Shown piece by piece: positions 623-41,995 of a stretch of DNA of 50,912 nt (positions are counted from its first letter, which is position 1; every line of letters begins with the position of its first letter). Origin of the DNA: an uncultured Prevotella sp. Lineage in GTDB: Bacteria > Bacteroidota > Bacteroidia > Bacteroidales > Bacteroidaceae. The translations under genes and the position numbers were made by a program. The stretch is taken from contig ONTZ01000020.1 in NCBI GenBank assembly GCA_900320905.1, positions 1 to 50,912 on the forward strand, given 5' to 3'. The notes below the pieces were generated by a model. That model was given only the letters and a program-made list of their open reading frames with translations. It was not told where the DNA came from and did no database searches.

Positions 623-784
623 CTACATAGTCATCATTCCAGGTATCAGCCATCGATTAAGTTTTACCCAGAATCGTGCAATACTTAGTCGGGATTGTTC
701 TGGGACGCTTGGTTCATGAACAACAAATCCGCGTTCTTCAATATATTGGGCACGAAGTTCTTTAACGGCATCACTGGTTTTTAG
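623..784 (-). pseudogene. start-less reading frame, remnant of a small gene
   Basis: On the minus strand a 53-codon frame runs between two stops and reads like protein (DAVKELRAQYIEERGFVVHE, then FWVKLNRWLIPGMM). It has no ATG/GTG/TTG near its beginning. It follows, in the same frame, the stop codon of the XRE-like C-terminal fragment at 785-823. I do not recognise the family. It is best explained as the truncated downstream gene of a toxin-antitoxin-like or regulator operon, but a noncoding chance frame is possible. Confidence 0.3.
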
Positions 785-823
785 TTATGCCTCCATCGCT
801 GCAGCTTGGAAGTGTTTGAGCAT
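785..823 (-). pseudogene. C-terminal scrap similar to XRE-type antitoxin
   Basis: The minus-strand frame ends LKHFQAAAMEA-stop. This matches the end of the XRE-like remnant at 2474-2632 (GIELFQAAAMEP-stop), and the two stretches are about 80% identical at DNA level over roughly 27 nt. The frame continues upstream into the left palindrome without a recognisable HTH, so only the extreme C-terminus survives. It and the 2474-2632 copy flank the ATPase unit as imperfect direct repeats. Confidence 0.4.
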
Positions 824-7528: not shown

Positions 7529-7603
7529 TGGTAGTCCGTAGGAGAGTCGAACTCCTCTTTAGAGAATGAAAATCTCTCGTCCTAACCGATAGACGAACGG
7601 ACC
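7529..7603 (-). tRNA. tRNA-Glu (anticodon UUC)
   Basis: This is a 75-nt cloverleaf with encoded CCA. The acceptor GGTCCGT pairs with ACGGACT, with a G-U pair at 1-72. The anticodon stem is AGAGA/TCTCT with loop TTTTCAT, giving anticodon TTC. The T-arm is AGGAG-TTCGACT-CTCCT. Confidence 0.95.
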
Positions 7604-8466: not shown

Positions 8467-11289
8467 TGGAGTGGTGATGCCTGCGGTGGATACCTTGAGG
8501 CGTGTCTGCTTGCCGTTGTTGTAGAAGGTGGCTGTGAAGCGACCTTCGGCATCAGGACGGGCATTGGGATTCCAGTATAGTGTGCGGCGGTGATCTTGCA
8601 GGTCGGAAGGCAAGGGACGCTGACTGTAGTCAGGGTGATAGAAGTCATCGGGCTCGTACATGCCGTCGAGAATATAACGGCGATCGCGGTAGGTATAGCG
8701 TTTCCCGTCATCGGGCAGTAGCATGTAGTCGAGGGTGACATCTGCCACTGTGCTCTGCATCTCCACATGCTTGTCCTCGTTGCGCAGTTCGAAGTCGGTA
8801 TAGAGCCTGATCTGGTTCTGGCGGTTTAGTTTGATTTCGTTGAAGACAAGTTGTTCGCTTTTGAACTGTTCTGTGACAGTGGGTCCTGGATCGTAGTTGC
8901 GGTAGAAGACGTAGGGCCTATAAACCTGGTCGTTGAGCCGCGCCATAACCTGCATACGGCGGTCGCTGTTGTAATTGCCTAAGAGGGCCATACTCACCTG
9001 GATAGGAAACATTTTGGCATTGTACATGCCGTAAGAGAGTCCACGATCCGTGACGAGATTGTAGAGGTCGTAGGTATCGAAGACATAGGCGGGCTTCGAG
9101 TAGTCGATGCTGCGCCTGCCACGATGCTTGTGGCCTTTCACCTGAATGTCCTTGAGGGTCTGGTCCATCTTCGAGAGTCGGGCGGTGTCTGCTATGGTAT
9201 AGTCGTCGAAGGCAGTGCCATCAGCAATCTCTGGCAGGTGACACTGGTAATAGTCATATTTGTCGGCGAAGACGGGATAGAAGATATCGCGCTTCACGTA
9301 AAAGTCTGGGAAGGCCGTCTCGTCGAGCATACGGTTCTGACGCTTCTGCTTCTTCTTGTCACTGAGGTCGGCCTTTCTGGCCTTGAGGAAGAGAATGGCA
9401 TTGCCGTAGTAGGGCGGGATGGAGAATGAGAAGCGACCCATCGAGTCGGTGGACAATTCGATGGTTGCGATGTCGTCCTCAAAGACGAGTTCACTTTCCA
9501 CAACCACCATCTTGTGCAGGTTCTTGCGGTCGATACCGAAATAGGGGTCGATGGCACTCGTGGGGTTTTCGGTATCCTCCACATAGATGGCTGTGCCCAC
9601 CTGTTCCACCTGTAGGGTACCGTTCTGTGTCTGGGCCACAAGACCGTCGGGTGTGGTGGCCTGATAGCGGTCCATGCCCTGCACTTTCTCTTCACCTTGC
9701 TCCTGTTCGATGGTGGAGGTATTCGCTTCCTCAGCACTTGGGACGTAGCCGAAGATACCTTGAGGCCAATAAGGCAGTTCTTCGGGCAGGATATCGAGGG
9801 AGTTAGGCACGGGATAGACGGCTCCTTCGATAGTCATTGTCTTTTCGGGTTGATAGCGCAGGGGGGTGTTGCTGGTGATCTCGTTGTAATCGTAGCGCCG
9901 CCATCCCTGTACCATCATCAGCAGGTCGAGGGCGCGCCTATGTGTCTGGTCATCGGATTCAAAGTAATAGTCCGGGTAAGCGATGAAACCCTTCAGTTCG
10001 CTGGAGAGCAGAAGGTCAGTGACGATGTTGCCCGTGTCGTAGGTCGGGTCCTCGTGGGCACCGTCACGCACGGAGATGGATATAGGTCCAGTGCCTGGGG
10101 GTGCCTGGAACTGCAAGTTGACCGCCTCGAAGGGCTGGTACTCACTCTGCATACCGCTGACGGTGATGGGATTCAGGTCGTAGTCGTGGTGGTTGACGAA
10201 AAACAAACGGTCTGCCAACAGATGTCCTTCTTCATCGAATACCAGTAGGTCGTTGACACCTGTGGGCAGTATCGACTGGTCGATGGTGACGCGTCCATTG
10301 CCCTTGATAGTCTGGAACGACTTGAGCACCCCCCTACAGAGTACCGCCACCCCGTAGTCGCGGTCGGCGGGGAGTCCCTGTAGTGTGATATCTGCAGTAG
10401 TGGATTGGGGTGAGGTCTCTACATGCAGGGCGCAGCCTGTGCGCTCTGGCTTTGGCAGGTCGAAGTAGTAGGTCTTACCATGATATGTAAACGAGGCTTC
10501 TGCGTCCTTGCCCTCAGGCACGGTCAGGAAGAACAGACCTTTGCCCTGATGCTCTGTGCGGATGGTCTGGCTGTTGTCGCCTATTGTCACCTGTCCGCTG
10601 ATGTCGATATGCTCACCCTCCTCGTTGACCACCTCAAAGGCGACGGCGCAACGGGTGCCTGCCAACAGATGACCCCCCTCGGGATAGAAGCGCACCTCCA
10701 GTTTCGCTTTCAGTTCCTTCTCAATCCTGGTCTTGGGTCTGTTGACGATGTATTTCTGACTGTAGTCACCTGTGGAGTCAGGACGCTCATAGACGGGAAA
10801 CACGCGACTATACACCGTTCCAAATTGCCGGAAGAAGTCGCGTGCCATGTCCTTGTTATAAAAATACTCGCGGTCCTTGCGCCCGTAAGGATGTTCCGTC
10901 ACACAGAAATTGAGCATCCACCGCGTGTAGGCACGTATCTCGTAGTAGCCCGAATAGAGTGAGTCCATCAACACGAAGTTGCCGTCGCTATAACCGTCGG
11001 GTGACACGATGATGTTCTCGCGCTTCACCACCAGTCCGTCAGGTGAGAGCAGTTCCACATAGAGGATGCGACTCATGTCGCTATATATCAGACTGTCGGC
11101 CCGTACTACATACGACTTGTACCAGATGGTGTCGCCTTTGTAGTAACAAGTGTTGTCAAGGTGCAGGTAGACTTTTTCCTGTACTGGTGCCTGCTCTAGC
11201 ATCTGGCGTATGTTGTCCAACCGTGTTTGTGCCCCCGCCGGATCCACCAGCGTGACAAGCATCATCAAAGTCATTATGATTTTTTTCAT
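8455..11289 (-). CDS. Large exported MG2/macroglobulin-like protein of the Bacteroidetes envelope
   Basis: The protein has 944 residues with a signal peptide (KKIIMTLMMLVTLVDPAGAQ). Just after it, EKVYLHLDNTCYYKGDTIWY followed by KSYVV is the MG2-like module seen in Bacteroidetes proteins often annotated as TonB-receptor plug or alpha-2-macroglobulin-like. A further beta-rich region (PEGGHLLAGTRCAVAFEVVN) is followed by a C-terminal TLYWNPNARPDAEGRFTATF motif typical of the family. A cluster DKKKQKRQNR lies in the middle. The substrate is unknown. It is 18 nt downstream of the small exported protein at 11308-11901, with no promoter between them, so they form an operon. The gene at 47158-48408 carries a shorter related MG2-like segment. 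Confidence 0.7.
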   Translation of the reverse strand: MKKIIMTLMMLVTLVDPAGAQTRLDNIRQMLEQAPVQEKVYLHLDNTCYYKGDTIWYKSYVVRADSLIYSDMSRILYVELLSPDGLVVKRENIIVSPDGYSDGNFVLMDSLYSGYYEIRAYTRWMLNFCVTEHPYGRKDREYFYNKDMARDFFRQFGTVYSRVFPVYERPDSTGDYSQKYIVNRPKTRIEKELKAKLEVRFYPEGGHLLAGTRCAVAFEVVNEEGEHIDISGQVTIGDNSQTIRTEHQGKGLFFLTVPEGKDAEASFTYHGKTYYFDLPKPERTGCALHVETSPQSTTADITLQGLPADRDYGVAVLCRGVLKSFQTIKGNGRVTIDQSILPTGVNDLLVFDEEGHLLADRLFFVNHHDYDLNPITVSGMQSEYQPFEAVNLQFQAPPGTGPISISVRDGAHEDPTYDTGNIVTDLLLSSELKGFIAYPDYYFESDDQTHRRALDLLMMVQGWRRYDYNEITSNTPLRYQPEKTMTIEGAVYPVPNSLDILPEELPYWPQGIFGYVPSAEEANTSTIEQEQGEEKVQGMDRYQATTPDGLVAQTQNGTLQVEQVGTAIYVEDTENPTSAIDPYFGIDRKNLHKMVVVESELVFEDDIATIELSTDSMGRFSFSIPPYYGNAILFLKARKADLSDKKKQKRQNRMLDETAFPDFYVKRDIFYPVFADKYDYYQCHLPEIADGTAFDDYTIADTARLSKMDQTLKDIQVKGHKHRGRRSIDYSKPAYVFDTYDLYNLVTDRGLSYGMYNAKMFPIQVSMALLGNYNSDRRMQVMARLNDQVYRPYVFYRNYDPGPTVTEQFKSEQLVFNEIKLNRQNQIRLYTDFELRNEDKHVEMQSTVADVTLDYMLLPDDGKRYTYRDRRYILDGMYEPDDFYHPDYSQRPLPSDLQDHRRTLYWNPNARPDAEGRFTATFYNNGKQTRLKVSTAGITTPSQK

Positions 11290-37017: not shown

Positions 37018-38616
37018 ATGAAACGACTGCAGGTAGTCCTCCTGTTGTTTTGTCTCTTTGTAGTGACCGTTTCCGGACAGAAAAAAAACACTGTCCGGAA
37101 AAAGGTTGCTACTACAAAGATTGTGTCTAAAAAACAACCTGCTAAAAAGACAACCAAGAAGGTCTCTACCACCAAGAAGGAGCAGCCTGTGACGGTGAAA
37201 GGGTTGCAGAGCCAGCGCCAACAACTCCAACAGCAGATGAAGGAGCAGGAGCGCAAGTTGCGCCAGAATGAGCAGGACGTGAAGAAACGCTTGCAGAACC
37301 TGATGATCATCAATACGGAGATCAGTGACAAACGTCGGACGATTGATACCATCCGTCGCGACATCAATACCCTTGATGGGAATATACAGGTCTTGGATCT
37401 TCAAGTAAAGAATCTGGAAAAAGAACTTGAAGAACGTAAGGAGCGTTTCAAGAAGTCCGTGCGCTATATGCACCGCAATAGGAACATCCAAAACCAGTTG
37501 ATGTTCATATTCAGTGCCAAGAACTTCTCACAGATGTTCCGTCGTCTGCGCTTTATGCGGGAGTATGCTGTTTTCCAGCAGGCTCAAGGTGAGGCCGTGC
37601 AGTCCATGCAAGAGCAGGTTGCTGAGGCGGTCGAGGAACTGTCGGGCGTGAAGAAGCAGAAGAACGATCTGCTCTACCGTGGTGAACGCGAAAGGAAGTC
37701 ACTTGAAAGCAAACAGGTGGAGCAGCAAAAGGTGGTGACCTCCTTGCAGAAACAGCAGAAGACCATCCAAAGTGTGTTGGAACAGCAACGAAAAAAAGAT
37801 GCTGAACTGAACGCGCAGATTGATAAGTTGATTGCCGAGGAGATTGCTCGTGCCAAGGCCCGTGCTGAGGCTGAGCGGAAGAAGAAGGCCGCAGAGGAAG
37901 CCCGTAAGAAACAAGAGGCGGAAATGGCCCGTAAGAAGGCTGCTGCCGAAGCCGCTGCCCGGGAGAATGCCCGTAAGATTCAGGAGGCAAAGGAGAAGGA
38001 GGCTAAGGCCAAGGCCGAAGCCCGTGCTGCCGTCCGTAAGAGTGAACGTGAGAAGGCTACCGCAGAGAAGGCTGCCCGTGAGGCAGAGAATGCCCGTAAG
38101 GAGGCGGAGCGCAAGGCGGCTGATGAGGCCAAGGCCCATGAGAAGGAGATGGCTGAGGCCAAGAAAAAATCGGAAGAGGCCTGGATTATGTCGTCTGTCG
38201 ACCGACAGTTGAGCGGTAACTTCGAGAGTAATAAGGGACGGTTCCCCATGCCCATTACTGGGGCTTATAAGATCGTCAACACTCAAGGTCAGCATCGTGT
38301 GGAGGGGCTGAAAGGAACAACGGTCCAGGAGACGAAGGGCATTGAACTGAAAGGACAACCGGGTGCAAAGGCTCGTTGTATCTTCGACGGAGAAGTGAGC
38401 CGGGTGCAAGACTATAGAGGTTCGGTGATTGTCATCGTGCGTCATGGAACCTACTTCTCCGTATATAGTGATCTCTCGTCGGTGAATGTTACGAGTGGAC
38501 AGAAAGTCAGCACGCGCCAAATCATAGGCTCTGTCAGTCGCGATGGTACGATGAAGTTCCAGTTGCGTCGACTGTCGGGAGCCTTGCTCAATCCCTTGTC
38601 GTGGTTGAGCAGATAG
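37018..38616 (+). CDS. EnvC-like protein: coiled coil plus degenerate LytM (M23) domain
   Basis: The protein has 532 residues with signal peptide KRLQVVLLLFCLFVVTVSGQ. A long coiled coil (about 60-270, rich in QQQLQQQMKEQERKLRQNEQ) is followed by an Ala/Glu/Arg/Lys-rich helical stretch (about 270-395). The C-terminal LytM fold has TKGIEL where active enzymes have HxGxD, and MKFQLRR where they have LHFQ (HxH). The zinc ligands are missing, so like E. coli EnvC it probably activates an amidase rather than cutting wall itself. It lies 7 nt after the DUF4292 gene and is convergent with the M20 gene, 9 nt between stops. Confidence 0.85.
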   Translation: MKRLQVVLLLFCLFVVTVSGQKKNTVRKKVATTKIVSKKQPAKKTTKKVSTTKKEQPVTVKGLQSQRQQLQQQMKEQERKLRQNEQDVKKRLQNLMIINTEISDKRRTIDTIRRDINTLDGNIQVLDLQVKNLEKELEERKERFKKSVRYMHRNRNIQNQLMFIFSAKNFSQMFRRLRFMREYAVFQQAQGEAVQSMQEQVAEAVEELSGVKKQKNDLLYRGERERKSLESKQVEQQKVVTSLQKQQKTIQSVLEQQRKKDAELNAQIDKLIAEEIARAKARAEAERKKKAAEEARKKQEAEMARKKAAAEAAARENARKIQEAKEKEAKAKAEARAAVRKSEREKATAEKAAREAENARKEAERKAADEAKAHEKEMAEAKKKSEEAWIMSSVDRQLSGNFESNKGRFPMPITGAYKIVNTQGQHRVEGLKGTTVQETKGIELKGQPGAKARCIFDGEVSRVQDYRGSVIVIVRHGTYFSVYSDLSSVNVTSGQKVSTRQIIGSVSRDGTMKFQLRRLSGALLNPLSWLSR

Positions 38617-38625
38617 ATTCCTTAT

Positions 38626-39690
38626 TTAGAGTTGAAAGTCCGAGAGCAACCGCACATACGTGTCGATGGCCTGCTCTATCTCGGAGATGCGGATGAACTC
38701 ATCGGCAGAGTGACTGCGTGCAGAATCACCAGGGCCTAACTTCATCGACGGGAAGGACATCAGGGCCTGGTCGCTGAGGGTCGGACTGCCAAAGGGCTGC
38801 ATATTCATTGCCAGGCATTTCTGTACCAAGGGATGCGTCTCTGGGATGCTCGACGAGTGCAGACGGAACGAGCGGGCCTCTAAACGGCACTTTTTCATTT
38901 TCTTCCTTAAGAACTCAAACAAGTATTCATTTTGATAGAATTCATTTGGGCGTACATCGATGATAAAATGCAGGCTATCGGGAATCACATTGTGCTGGGT
39001 GCCTGCCTCTACGACGGTTACCGTCATCTTCGTGGGTCCTAACAACGGACTCTCTTTGCGGAACTTGTAGTCTCTCAGCCAGACCAGATCGTCCAGGGCC
39101 TCATAGATGGCATTCACCCCTTCGCTCCTGGCAGCATGACCTGATATGCCATCGGCATAACCGTCGATGACCATTAAGCCCTTTTCGGCGATGGCGGGCT
39201 GCATACCTGTCGGCTCACCGACGATAGCCACGTCAATCTTCGGAAGTCTCGATATGACACGACTAAAACCGTCCTTACCAGAAACCTCCTCCTCGGCAGA
39301 GGCTACCCAGAGAATATTATAGTTACGGGGGCGGTGGAGCATGATGCGATAGGTTTGAAGCAAGGCCACAAGACCGCCACCACAGTCGTTGGAACCTAAG
39401 CCATAGAGGAGATCGCCTTCTTGGGTTGGCTGATACGGATTGTGGGTCCATGTGGCAACGGGCTTGACGGTGTCGATATGGGCATTCAGCATCACTGTCG
39501 GACGGTTGTTATTCCAGTCCTGGCAACCTATCCACAAGTTATTGCCCTCACGACCGTATGGTAATCCCCATTCTTCTAAATAGCGACTTAACAGATTGGC
39601 TGCACGCTCCTCATTTCTGCTGACTGATGGTGTGGCTATCAGTGCCCTCAACAGTCTCACAGCGTCATTCAAATAAATGTTTTGCTCCAT
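38626..39690 (-). CDS. argE: M20 metallopeptidase, acetyl-/succinyl-ornithine(citrulline) deacetylase-like
   Basis: The protein has 354 residues. M20 metal motifs are LNAHIDTVKPV, GSNDCGGGLVALL (bridging Asp), ASAEEEVSGKDG (general-base Glu) and AIVGEPTGMQP, with late ARSHSADEFIRI. The dimerisation lid occupies about 165-270. Best fit is the Bacteroidetes ArgE-type enzyme of arginine synthesis, which uses acetyl- or succinyl-citrulline/ornithine. Other arginine genes are not in the window, so substrate is inferred. It has its own promoter. Confidence 0.82.
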   Translation of the reverse strand: MEQNIYLNDAVRLLRALIATPSVSRNEERAANLLSRYLEEWGLPYGREGNNLWIGCQDWNNNRPTVMLNAHIDTVKPVATWTHNPYQPTQEGDLLYGLGSNDCGGGLVALLQTYRIMLHRPRNYNILWVASAEEEVSGKDGFSRVISRLPKIDVAIVGEPTGMQPAIAEKGLMVIDGYADGISGHAARSEGVNAIYEALDDLVWLRDYKFRKESPLLGPTKMTVTVVEAGTQHNVIPDSLHFIIDVRPNEFYQNEYLFEFLRKKMKKCRLEARSFRLHSSSIPETHPLVQKCLAMNMQPFGSPTLSDQALMSFPSMKLGPGDSARSHSADEFIRISEIEQAIDTYVRLLSDFQL

Positions 39691-39708
39691 AGATACTTAA
39701 TATTTGCT

Positions 39709-39717
39709 GCAAAGTTA
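39709..39717 (-). promoter_or_regulatory. argE-like gene -7 element
   Basis: TAACTTTGC on the minus strand lies 19 nt before the ATG and just beyond the terminator of the upstream RNA unit. Confidence 0.65.
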
Positions 39718-39738
39718 CAAATATAAATTGAAAGTACC

Positions 39739-39775
39739 AAAAAAAGATGCCACCACTCTCGCGAGCAGTGGCATC
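39739..39775 (-). terminator. Rho-independent terminator of the small RNA unit
   Basis: On the minus strand, GATGCCAC...GTGGCATC extends inward through two G-U pairs and CTC/GAG to a GCGA tetraloop, followed directly by T7. Confidence 0.9.
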
Positions 39776-39971
39776 AAAAAAGCCTATGTTTAACTAAAAA
39801 TCCTTTTCTCTAAAAGAAATTTTCAGCCTTACGGCTAAAAATTTGAAAGTTTAAAAGGGAATTTCACAATTGCCTCCTGTTATCCACAGCTGAAAACTTT
39901 CTCTTACCAATAACTAAAAACCTAAAACTATAAATATTACTACTAACCTAAAACAATCTATTAACCTTTTG
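39739..39971 (-). ncRNA. candidate structured small RNA, about 230 nt
   Basis: A complete minus-strand transcription unit has no coding frame longer than about 10 codons. The promoter is TTG-N20-TATCTTTGC (-7 at 39977-39985). The body folds into a stem GAAAGTTT/AAACTTTC (39894-39901 with 39845-39852) enclosing CTGT/ACAG, then a 12-bp hairpin with a GTAA tetraloop (39817-39828 with 39833-39844), then CTTTT/AAAAG (39803-39816). The terminator is a 13-bp stem (39746-39758 with 39763-39775) with GCGA loop and seven Ts. An AGGAGG followed by GTG could start a 10-residue peptide (VKFPFKLSNF). I cannot match it to tmRNA, RNase P or SRP RNA; 6S RNA is not excluded. Confidence 0.65.
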
Positions 39972-39976
39972 ACGTT

Positions 39977-39985
39977 GCAAAGATA
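39977..39985 (-). promoter_or_regulatory. promoter of the small RNA unit
   Basis: TATCTTTGC has TTG 20 nt upstream, which is near-consensus spacing for the Bacteroidetes -33/-7 promoter. No ATG-started frame follows. Confidence 0.65.
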
Positions 39986-40123
39986 ATTCTTTTTGGGATA
40001 ACTTGCAATACTTTCACTAAAATAAGTGTATAAAAACCCATCATTCTTGACATAAATCAAGCGATTGTGTGCGGAAACACTAAATAAATACTCATTTTTC
40101 TTTGTTTTTTGCAAAACTTACAG

Positions 40124-40132
40124 TACCTTTGC
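40124..40132 (+). promoter_or_regulatory. -7 element of the DUF4359-glycosyltransferase operon
   Basis: TACCTTTGC lies 25 nt before ATG 40158. It excludes the longer frame that begins at 40065. Confidence 0.65.
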
Positions 40133-40157
40133 GCTCAAATTAAATAAAGTATATGAT

Positions 40158-40742
40158 ATGAAGAAATTATTAGCAGTAATTATCGTTTTGCTTGTTGCGA
40201 TTCTTATGGCACTGACAGTACCAGACAAGCAGAAACACAAAGATGCCATGATGGAGGCGGTCAACGAATTCGTGGAAGAAGAAGCCGTCGATAAACTGGG
40301 CGACAATATTCTTGCAAAACTTGGTAAGGGTGTTGTCGTGAAAACCGTAGAGACCGCTCTGAATTCCAAACTAAAAGTTGACAACTATTACCTCTTTAAT
40401 ACCACGCATGTGCGTCTGAAAGGGGAAGATCAAATCCTCTCGGTAGGTATGTTTGGTCATGTGTTTACCTTTGATAAGCAGATGCTTCGTGATAAGTTGG
40501 ATGAAGCCCTGAATGCAAAGGAGGAGGCTGCCAGTGAGAAAGAGGCTGCTAAGGAAAGTGCCAAGGAATTGAAACGTCTCCAAAAGGAACAGAGGAAGCG
40601 CGAAAAAGAATTGGAGAAAGAACAAAAGAAACGCGAGAAGGAAGCAGCCAAGGAAGCCAAGCAAAGAGCCAAGGAAGCCGAAAAGGCTGCTAAAGAAGCC
40701 GCGAAAGAAGCCAAGCGCAGAGCCAAGGAAGCAAAGAATTGA
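40158..40742 (+). CDS. DUF4359-like membrane-anchored protein with charged coiled tail
   Basis: The protein has 194 residues. An N-terminal membrane helix or uncleaved signal (KKLLAVIIVLLVAILMALTV) is followed by a small domain (AVDKLGDNILAKLGKGVVVK, then DNYYLFNTTHVRLKG) resembling DUF4359. From about 120 the sequence is almost only Lys/Glu/Ala/Arg in heptad-like runs (KEAKQRAKEAEKAAKEAAKE), a strongly charged helix. Function unknown. Its stop overlaps the next gene's ATG (TGATG), so translation is coupled to the glycosyltransferases. Confidence 0.65.
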   Translation: MKKLLAVIIVLLVAILMALTVPDKQKHKDAMMEAVNEFVEEEAVDKLGDNILAKLGKGVVVKTVETALNSKLKVDNYYLFNTTHVRLKGEDQILSVGMFGHVFTFDKQMLRDKLDEALNAKEEAASEKEAAKESAKELKRLQKEQRKREKELEKEQKKREKEAAKEAKQRAKEAEKAAKEAAKEAKRRAKEAKN

Positions 40743-41995
40743 TGCGAGTCTTGATTGTCAATACCAGTGAGCGGACAGGTGGGGCAGCAGTTGCTGCCAA
40801 TCGTTTGATGATGGCTCTGAACAACAATGGTGTCAAAGCCAAGATGCTGGTACGCGACAAGGAGACAGATTCATTGACTGTCATCGGATTACCGAAATCG
40901 CCGATGCTCCATTGGCATTTCCTATGGGAACGGTTAGTCGTTTTCGTTCGTAGCCGCTTTTCACGGAAACATCTTTTTGAAATCGACCTTGCCAATATAG
41001 GTTCCGACATCACTCGATTGCCGGAATTTCAGGAGGCCGACGTCATCCATCTGCATTGGATCAATCAAGGCATGCTCTCGCTTGGTAGCATCCAAGGGAT
41101 CTTACGGAGTGGCAAACCTGTGGTGTGGACTATGCACGACATTTGGCCTGCGACGGCCATCTGCCATCTCACACTGGGATGCAGGAGTTTTACCTCGGCG
41201 TGTAAATCGTGCAAACTGTTGCCGAAAGGCAGTAGGCTCGCCCAGCGTGTCTGGCGCAAAAAGCAACGGCTGTTGGAAGACGGGAACATCTATTTTGTGG
41301 CTTGTAGTCGCTGGCTGGAACAGGAGGCCAAGTCGAGTGCATTGTTAAAAGGACATAAGATTACGAGCATCCCTAACCCGATAGATACACATATATATAA
41401 TAATAGGTGTCAAAAACTGGAAGCCCGCCAGCGTCTCGGACTGCCTGCGGACAAAAAACTGATCCTCTTCGTCTCACAGCGTGTGACAAATCCCAATAAA
41501 GGTATGGATTACCTTAGTGAAGCCTGTCGTCAACTGGAAGACGTACCTCACTTGGGGGTTGTCATCCTTGGCGGACATGCCGAGGAAGTGCTTGGCCAGA
41601 TATCTTTCGAGGCTTATCCCTTAGGCTATGTCAACGATGAGCATCGTATTGTGGATATCTATAATGCTGTTGATGTCTTTGTGTTGCCATCGTTGTCGGA
41701 GAATCTTCCCAACACCATCATGGAAGCAATGGCCTGTGGCGTGCCGTGTGTTGGTTTCAGGGTAGGGGGGATCCCCGAAGAGATAGACCACAAGCAAAAT
41801 GGCTATGTTGCCGAGTACCGCAATGCGGAGGATTTGGCACGGGGCATCCGCTGGATTCTTACCGAGGCCGACTACGGATCCCTTAGTCAGCATGCCGTCC
41901 AAAAAGTAGCGCAGAACTACTCCCAACAGAGTGTTGCCCTTAAGTATCTCGATGTCTATCAACAAGCGATGGCCTTTAAGCACTACGGACTATGA
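40742..41995 (+). CDS. Glycosyltransferase family 4
   Basis: The protein has 417 residues of GT-B fold. N-terminal motif RVLIVNTSERTGGAAVAANR fits GT4 enzymes that take a nucleotide sugar. A cysteine cluster (CHLTLGCRSFTSACKSC, about 135-155) follows TMHDIWPATAI, as in a subset of exopolysaccharide/LPS glycosyltransferases. The donor site is VFVLPSLSENLPNTIMEAMA (E-x7-E) and CGVPCVGFRVGGIPEEI. ATG 40742 is used rather than TTG 40739. It overlaps the following GT2 gene by 4 nt. Product glycan unknown. Confidence 0.9.
   Translation: MRVLIVNTSERTGGAAVAANRLMMALNNNGVKAKMLVRDKETDSLTVIGLPKSPMLHWHFLWERLVVFVRSRFSRKHLFEIDLANIGSDITRLPEFQEADVIHLHWINQGMLSLGSIQGILRSGKPVVWTMHDIWPATAICHLTLGCRSFTSACKSCKLLPKGSRLAQRVWRKKQRLLEDGNIYFVACSRWLEQEAKSSALLKGHKITSIPNPIDTHIYNNRCQKLEARQRLGLPADKKLILFVSQRVTNPNKGMDYLSEACRQLEDVPHLGVVILGGHAEEVLGQISFEAYPLGYVNDEHRIVDIYNAVDVFVLPSLSENLPNTIMEAMACGVPCVGFRVGGIPEEIDHKQNGYVAEYRNAEDLARGIRWILTEADYGSLSQHAVQKVAQNYSQQSVALKYLDVYQQAMAFKHYGL

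Follow-up and report, generated by a model that had tools for sequence, protein, structure and literature searches.

Prevotella and Segatella are major fibre degraders of the gut and the rumen. In a 50,912-nt stretch of DNA from an uncultured Prevotella sp. (hereafter the window), an initial annotation had described a promoter, a structured body and a terminator on the minus strand (40008-39739) and had named 6S RNA or a new regulatory RNA as candidates. Does this element encode a functional RNA and, if so, to which class of RNA does it belong? All described parts, that is promoter, body, motif repeats, an AGGAGG with a 10-codon frame and terminator, are present in the sequence. Comparative analysis indicates that the stretch is very probably a real small RNA (sRNA) gene that lacks an Rfam family, belongs to a genus-wide family with several paralogs and carries a distinctive promoter. 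With a probability of roughly 0.6, its product would be a riboregulator that resembles FopS, acts in trans and is under the control of a Crp/Fnr-type factor, a reading in which expression, factor and targets are predictions. If true, this adds an sRNA gene that recurs throughout the genus at a fixed genomic address, with a folded core that is open to probing, together with a promoter signature that predicts co-regulated sRNAs and small open frames from sequence alone.

Conservation and members of the RNA family

With positions 39735-40000 as the query, BLAST matches at E<=0.01 were obtained in 187 of 200 sampled genomes of the same genus and in 84 of 85 good-quality ones (at least 90% complete, at most 5% contaminated), many of these matches comprising the promoter and the 5' module only because the middle of the RNA varies. 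The conservation of the window RNA far exceeds chance. Three forms, often found at one locus, can be distinguished: class A, which includes the window RNA (~230 nt), class C, which has extra hairpins, and the short class S (~170 nt). Further paralog classes with different bodies occupy other loci. A covariance model built from ten class S sequences and searched in 301 genomes of the bacterial family matched 35 of them; 22 are from the window's own genus (best E<=4.3e-18) and 13 from ten other genera (E 8e-7 to 1e-3). Eight loci were read from these 13 genomes; L077, L080, L081 and L083 have the promoter end and some of the motifs, and L076, L078, L079 and L082 were set aside as terminator-only or chance matches by appearance. 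Carriers of the core among the matches listed include Segatella copri iA622, Prevotella bivia, P. denticola, P. jejuni, P. brunnea, P. veroralis, Hallella mizrahii, H. multisaccharivorax and Xylanibacter ruminicola.

Several observations concern individual copies. A class F paralog in the window's own genome (G000:C53, ~58958-59340; L109, L190) has the M2 promoter described below and carries GGTTTTTAGTTA ahead of its terminator. The element at G000:C47:29310-29384 (L031) has the promoter end and 33 nt in common with the window RNA (97% identity), continues into another hairpin and is absent from the set of M2 sites. At L050 (G121:C70), two RNA copies (1913-2238 and 8498-8826) lie 6.5 kb apart, the second adjoining argE. 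The contigs of L003, L017, L018, L020, L022 and L028 end inside the RNA or within ~200 nt of it, as is expected if near-identical copies break the assembly, and copy numbers in such genomes may therefore be lower bounds.

Structure of the RNA

The predicted transcript occupies 39739-39973 of the minus strand, as indicated by conservation, promoter and terminator, with a start placed at about 39973-39971 from the -7 box. Its AU-rich 5' module (39904-39960), presumably a single-stranded seed, is almost invariant in classes A and C and shorter in class S. This module includes the first motif copy, GGTTTTTAGTTA (39911-39922), an exact 12-mer found largely within loci of the sRNA family; the second copy, GGATTTTTAGTTA (39803-39791), belongs to a conserved 3' motif ahead of the terminator (GGATTTTTAGTTAAACATAGG, 39783-39803), which is kept in class A and C homologs and occurs as variants in class S. 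An exact GGTTTTTAGTTA on the plus strand of the window (776-787) is probably due to chance and has neither the family promoter nor the hairpins within 500-1150. Between the conserved ends, helix P1 (39901-39894 / 39852-39845) encloses P2 (39889-39886 / 39880-39877) and P3 (39876-39868 / 39863-39855, with a GUGA loop) within 39845-39901. The P4 hairpin (39817-39844) has a GUAA loop and the intrinsic terminator (39739-39775) consists of a 13-bp stem, a GCGA loop and T7, so that the GNRA loops recognised earlier are indeed present, numbering three rather than two.

None of 200 dinucleotide shuffles folds as well as the window RNA (z -3.8). In its single-sequence minimum-energy fold, P4 and the terminator are present and the P1-P3 region is paired otherwise. 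For comparative analysis, 19 of 30 class A bodies were picked by hand to align the body and 22 to align the terminator, omitting identical or near-identical rows and contig-end copies and, for the body, also copies with large P4 inserts. The structure of P1 (with P2 and P3) plus P4 is paired in 97.6% of cells among the 19 homologs, and RNAalifold recovers 32 of its 33 body pairs. Eight body pairs are changed on both sides, which amounts to 29 cells where shuffles give 8.6 (0/500 as high), and 9 of the 13 terminator pairs are changed on both sides among the 22 sequences, with 57 cells against 17.7 (0/500 as high), counts that are not probabilities because related species have changes in common. 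The body signal is lost when the pairing partners are slid. Further pair types show no excess over shuffles in either the body (339/500) or the terminator (284/500).

The covariation check proposed for the stems at 39817-39844 and 39845-39901 thus supported P4 and P3. Five pairs of P3 are changed on both sides and one further pair is unpaired in 12 of the 19 sequences; P4 has three pairs changed on both sides and 99.6% of its cells paired. P3, P4 and the terminator are maintained by compensatory changes. P1 is invariant and P2 lacks compensatory change among the 19 homologs, which, together with the open P3 pair and the differing single-sequence fold, makes P1 and P2 the weakest part of the structure. 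Terminator-like sites within 38600-41000 are at chance level by count (2 found, 2.2 in shuffles), so the case rests on conservation. In class S, RNAalifold also predicts a stem between UGUUUAG and UUAAACA, invariant and hence non-covarying, that would close the RNA.

The AGGAGG (39878-39873) and the 10-codon GTG frame that follows it had been considered as a possible regulatory peptide, a proposal that comparison does not bear out: of 19 homologs, 2 have GCG in place of the GTG start and 2 lose the frame through a one-base gap. AGGAGG itself, which is AGGTGG in 7 of the 19, provides one strand of P3. The body has no sizeable reading frame of its own, and a 66-aa frame with a TTG start (39914-40114) that crosses the promoter into the RNA is taken as chance.

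The promoter

On the minus strand upstream of the RNA, the window locus has an M1 element (TGTTTCCGCACACA, 40066-40079), assigned from M1-type patterns in the upstream regions of homologous loci, and an M2 palindrome (TTGATTTATGTCAA, 40047-40060), a presumed activator site recognised by upstream conservation and a spacing peak. A -33 element TTG follows (40006-40008), separated by 20 nt from TATCTTTGC (39985-39977), where a -7 element of the TAnnTTTG type is located (TATCTTTG, 39978-39985). TTTGCA precedes the core in the homologs listed in full, the exception being L017, which is cut by a contig end.

These elements recur throughout the family. Among 63 loci, drawn from classes A, S, C, D, E and F, 62 have the M2 palindrome TTGA-N6-TCAA upstream (0.5 expected from mononucleotide shuffles), its start lying at -76 to -80 relative to the first T of TTTGCA. 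M1-type patterns (TGTTTGCGCACACA-like) were seen in 50 of the 63 (for one of the two patterns, mononucleotide shuffles predict 0.06). Their position relative to TTTGCA is mostly -94 to -99 but -20 to -23 in class D, which has two repeats, and they are missing from the five class E upstream regions. A TTG is present at -26 or -27 in most of the 63 loci, exceptions including L015, L018 and L042. When M2 was searched 50-80 bp before TTTGCA in eight genomes, 58 of the 106 sites were found at 64 bp (34) or 65 bp (24), compared with 48 sites over the other 29 spacings, about 1.7 each; the reversed-pattern control gave 4 sites for the range 50-80 and 0 for 62-66. In a second, partly overlapping set, M2 is at 64 or 65 bp in 71 of the 74 loci with enough upstream sequence. 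An activator in contact with RNA polymerase would require such a fixed distance, from which we infer an activator step.

M2 resembles the FNR box, TTGAT-N4-ATCAA. The Cur site of Bacteroides, in the form given by the cited passages (wwwTATGTTnTAnAACATAwww; PMC3878776, PMC6989115), differs from M2, and Cur was rejected as the M2 factor for this reason. One Crp/Fnr-type ortholog group is, by the reader's judgement, present in all eight genomes, among which no link between it and M2 was found.

Transcripts other than the window RNA family also lie behind this promoter. The promoter search listed 62 sites, of which 57 distinct ones were classified, the other five being one duplicate and four copies of the window-RNA locus. 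Fifteen of the 57 lead to this sRNA family, seven to a short sRNA (FopS) and 35 to something else.

Relation to known RNAs

At gathering thresholds, Rfam yields no family for the window locus, where only sub-threshold matches occur, nor for 15 homologous or related loci. The check advised for the locus thus returned no known family, and the earlier view that it is not a tmRNA, SRP RNA or RNase P RNA holds, since ARAGORN and cmscan detect only a tRNA-Glu (7529-7603) in the whole window. Bacteroidales-1 has no match in the window's own genome, and BTnc231 (RF04180) matches the locus with 23.9 bits (E 0.013), below its gathering score of 80.4. The designation as a new regulatory RNA is supported in part, by the lack of an Rfam match, the compensatory changes in P3, P4 and the terminator and the conserved promoter; transcription and function are predictions.

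Among the closest known systems is FopS. In the passages cited, FopS of Bacteroides thetaiotaomicron is described as a sugar-uptake sRNA from a family of paralogous sRNAs (RF04319; PMC11697453), which the RRM protein RbpB binds and antagonises (PMC11697453). A defining trait of FopS is repression of susC-like mRNAs near the start codon. Like the window RNA family, FopS is multi-copy and has a canonical promoter, a conserved single-stranded 5' part and an intrinsic terminator. FopS genes were detected above the gathering score of 56 bits at seven loci in six of the eight genomes (74.5-80.6 bits), all behind an M2 promoter in common with the window RNA (L175, L180, L181, L194, L201, L203 and L217, the last with two copies), and the FopS core TATTAGATTTAAGGT..AGATTG is common to class S members. 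However, FopS covers 71 model positions, whereas the window RNA is ~230 nt long, has a folded middle and gives no FopS match: the FopS model (gathering 56 bits) gives no match at gathering in the window, none within 39500-40200 up to E=10 and none at the window locus (L198) up to E=5.

Likeness to the FopS core (GUGUUUUUCAUgGUAUUAGAUUUAAGGUUAA) was compared in 19 RNA bodies picked by hand, with 500 dinucleotide shuffles each. Eight bodies beat at least 499 of 500 shuffles (L199, L052, L183, L212, L178 and L215 with 0 as good, L034 and L189 with 1), three of them of class S (L199, L052, L034). Numbers of equally good shuffles are intermediate for L042 (3), L044 (3), L219 (4), L036 (17; class S), L229 (38), L046 (46), L221 (71), L190 (105), L051 (124) and L013 (196), and 307 for the window copy, whose 15-nt block AAGGTTAATAGATTG (39954-39968) resembles the piece AAGGUUAAUAAAAGAUUG of the FopS consensus in a local alignment with a gap that is not significant. 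On these results, the family is called FopS-like and the window RNA is not assigned to FopS.

A further difference lies in the protein partner. FopS has an RRM partner in Bacteroides, whereas RRM_1 proteins at E<=1e-5 were found in none of the seven Prevotella genomes tested, nor in two genomes of other genera; G452, a genome of another genus, has three matches. G117, G122 and G146 contain FopS and no RRM_1 protein at E<=1e-5, so that FopS control there would need no RbpB, or another partner. The likeness to FopS and the presence in some homologs of GTAGGATA, a motif cited for RbpB (PMC12119571), had prompted the idea of an RRM/RbpB partner for the window RNA, which was rejected on the same grounds.

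Other sRNAs offer parallels as well. GibS (RF04182), according to the passages cited, has a conserved single-stranded 5' seed, middle hairpins and a terminator (PMC7366714); as far as it is described there, it resembles the window family as a longer sRNA of the same layout but differs in its promoter motif, which is PM2 in Bacteroides. The GibS model reaches 30.1 bits (E 1.3; gathering 115) over the 5' core of the class S member L199, a sub-threshold score, and no match is listed for the window locus. MasB of B. thetaiotaomicron, in the excerpt cited, is an sRNA of ~100 nt activated by Cur, a Crp-family regulator (PMC10994844), whose published site is unlike the M2 of the window RNA.

Proposed mode of action and alternative explanations

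In the explanation favoured here, the window RNA would be the product of an independent sRNA gene. Within a multi-copy family found in Prevotella in the wide sense, this gene would be the member linked to the glycosyltransferase. A dimeric Crp/Fnr-type factor would bind the M2 palindrome ~80 bp upstream of the start and activate not only this RNA but also its paralogs, FopS and a number of small open frames. The single-stranded 5' module and the 3' motif could then base-pair with target mRNAs around their start regions, in the manner of FopS and GibS of Bacteroides, the folded middle protecting or presenting the RNA. Candidate targets were sought with the 12-mer TAACTAAAAACC, the complement of the shared motif, which has 70 sites in 23 genomes (12 in 3 genomes, 58 in 20), ~50 of them in sRNA family loci by the reader's judgement. 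The remaining ~20 sites (16 independent) are not above the reversed-pattern control (0 in 3 genomes, 23 in 20); for six of the 16 the distance to a following start codon is 7-29 nt, but the genes differ, and four non-family sites represent one coding site, a transposase by appearance. By this 12-mer test, no mRNA target is conserved in the 23 genomes.

Alternatively, the RNA might be a decoy that carries the leader motifs of small-protein mRNAs transcribed from an M2 promoter like its own and titrates a leader-recognising protein or the ribosome, thereby tuning translation, which we consider unlikely. Leaders of the 35 non-sRNA M2 promoters contain GGATAA within their first 140 nt in 24 cases (22 of 32 without the three sRNA-like ones) and GGTAA within 24 nt before the chosen start in 8 of 35, although the choice of start favoured the motif; neither occurs at the first ATGs of 46 frames of at least 150 aa in the window, some of these background frames being spurious. 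The L225 leader ATTAGGTTTATTAGTTATTAAGGTAAAGATTATG from the window's own genome resembles the sRNA core, but the window copy has GGATAACA only at P2, without AAGGTAAAGATT, and the binding factor is hypothetical. The motifs fit a common origin of leaders and sRNAs, and such ancestry could explain them without a decoy. A bolder extension, to which we give rather low odds, is a Prevotella promoter code (TTGA-N6-TCAA, 64-65 bp before TTTGCA) that co-switches microproteins and an sRNA superfamily made up of FopS and this longer, folded family; the sRNAs would carry the leader words of the microprotein mRNAs and control their translation by competing for a leader-reading factor, which would replace the RRM partner of Bacteroides. 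An array of UAG repeats for protein binding had also been considered and was dropped, since most of 21 copies contain only slightly more UAG than their dinucleotide shuffles.

That the element acts in cis on the divergent glycosyltransferase operon, with the transcript as a by-product, is improbable. The glycosyltransferase gene of the window (PF00534) is on the plus strand at 40739-41995, the window M2 lies between two divergent transcription units, and 35 of 46 loci have a homolog in the fetched flank, 33 times in divergent orientation to the RNA; in the other 11 it is outside the fetched flank, several flanks being cut by contig ends. A second set, which overlaps the first in part, has it within 2.5 kb of 49 of 80 core matches. 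The glycosyltransferase is thus the stable neighbour, and the glycosyltransferase side of the original placement stands; argE, its other side, occurs in only 3 of the 46 flanks. Against a cis element speak the paralogs with the same core elsewhere and the compensatory changes in body and terminator. Least probable of all is 6S RNA sequestering RNA polymerase. 6S RNA is a rod with a central bubble. The class A consensus consists of a three-way junction and P4, then the terminator, with no bubble-bearing rod, and the paralogs with differing bodies and the absence of an Rfam 6S match add to the contrast; the earlier proposal of 6S RNA was rejected on structure and copy number. Size and wide conservation would fit, as would the invariant closing stem predicted for class S, and no other 6S was located in ten genomes, where RF00013 and RF01685 gave no match; RF01685 matched no control genome either, so that these genomes may nevertheless contain a separate 6S RNA.

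Compatible with the trans-acting reading, and in itself rather unlikely, is the identity of the window RNA with the published Segatella copri SrcF or its ortholog. The class S copy of S. copri iA622 adjoins the same glycosyltransferase, and deletion of SrcF, according to a review, disrupts nutrient-uptake genes including PULs (PMC11814227). SrcF (El Mouali et al. 2024), as described there, comes from the same bacterial group and has a nutrient-related role. Among the literature listings and passages covered, no description of this RNA or of the M2 promoter was recognised, the S. copri ortholog being a possible exception.

Open frames behind the M2 promoter

Among the 35 M2 sites that lead to something other than this family or FopS, three (L178, L196 and L221) are judged sRNA-like, many precede putative frames of 25-46 aa or small exported proteins, and a few are judged to be chance. 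Open frames of 25-46 aa are seen at L184, L186, L193, L200, L204, L205, L206, L208, L213, L214, L216, L222 and L225 and can be sorted by eye into types such as ..AQAIN.., MLLDF..HTN, ..RR.ALASK.K and ..YN.GR[VI]N. Frames of ~120-130 aa at L176, L185, L209, L218, L223 and L226, the last in the window's genome (G000:C75), resemble small exported proteins (MKKM..AMLSMTMAFAE..); two fragments of such frames had no match in Pfam. At L186, positions 47-143 hold a purine riboswitch (RF00167) that is unrelated to the window RNA.
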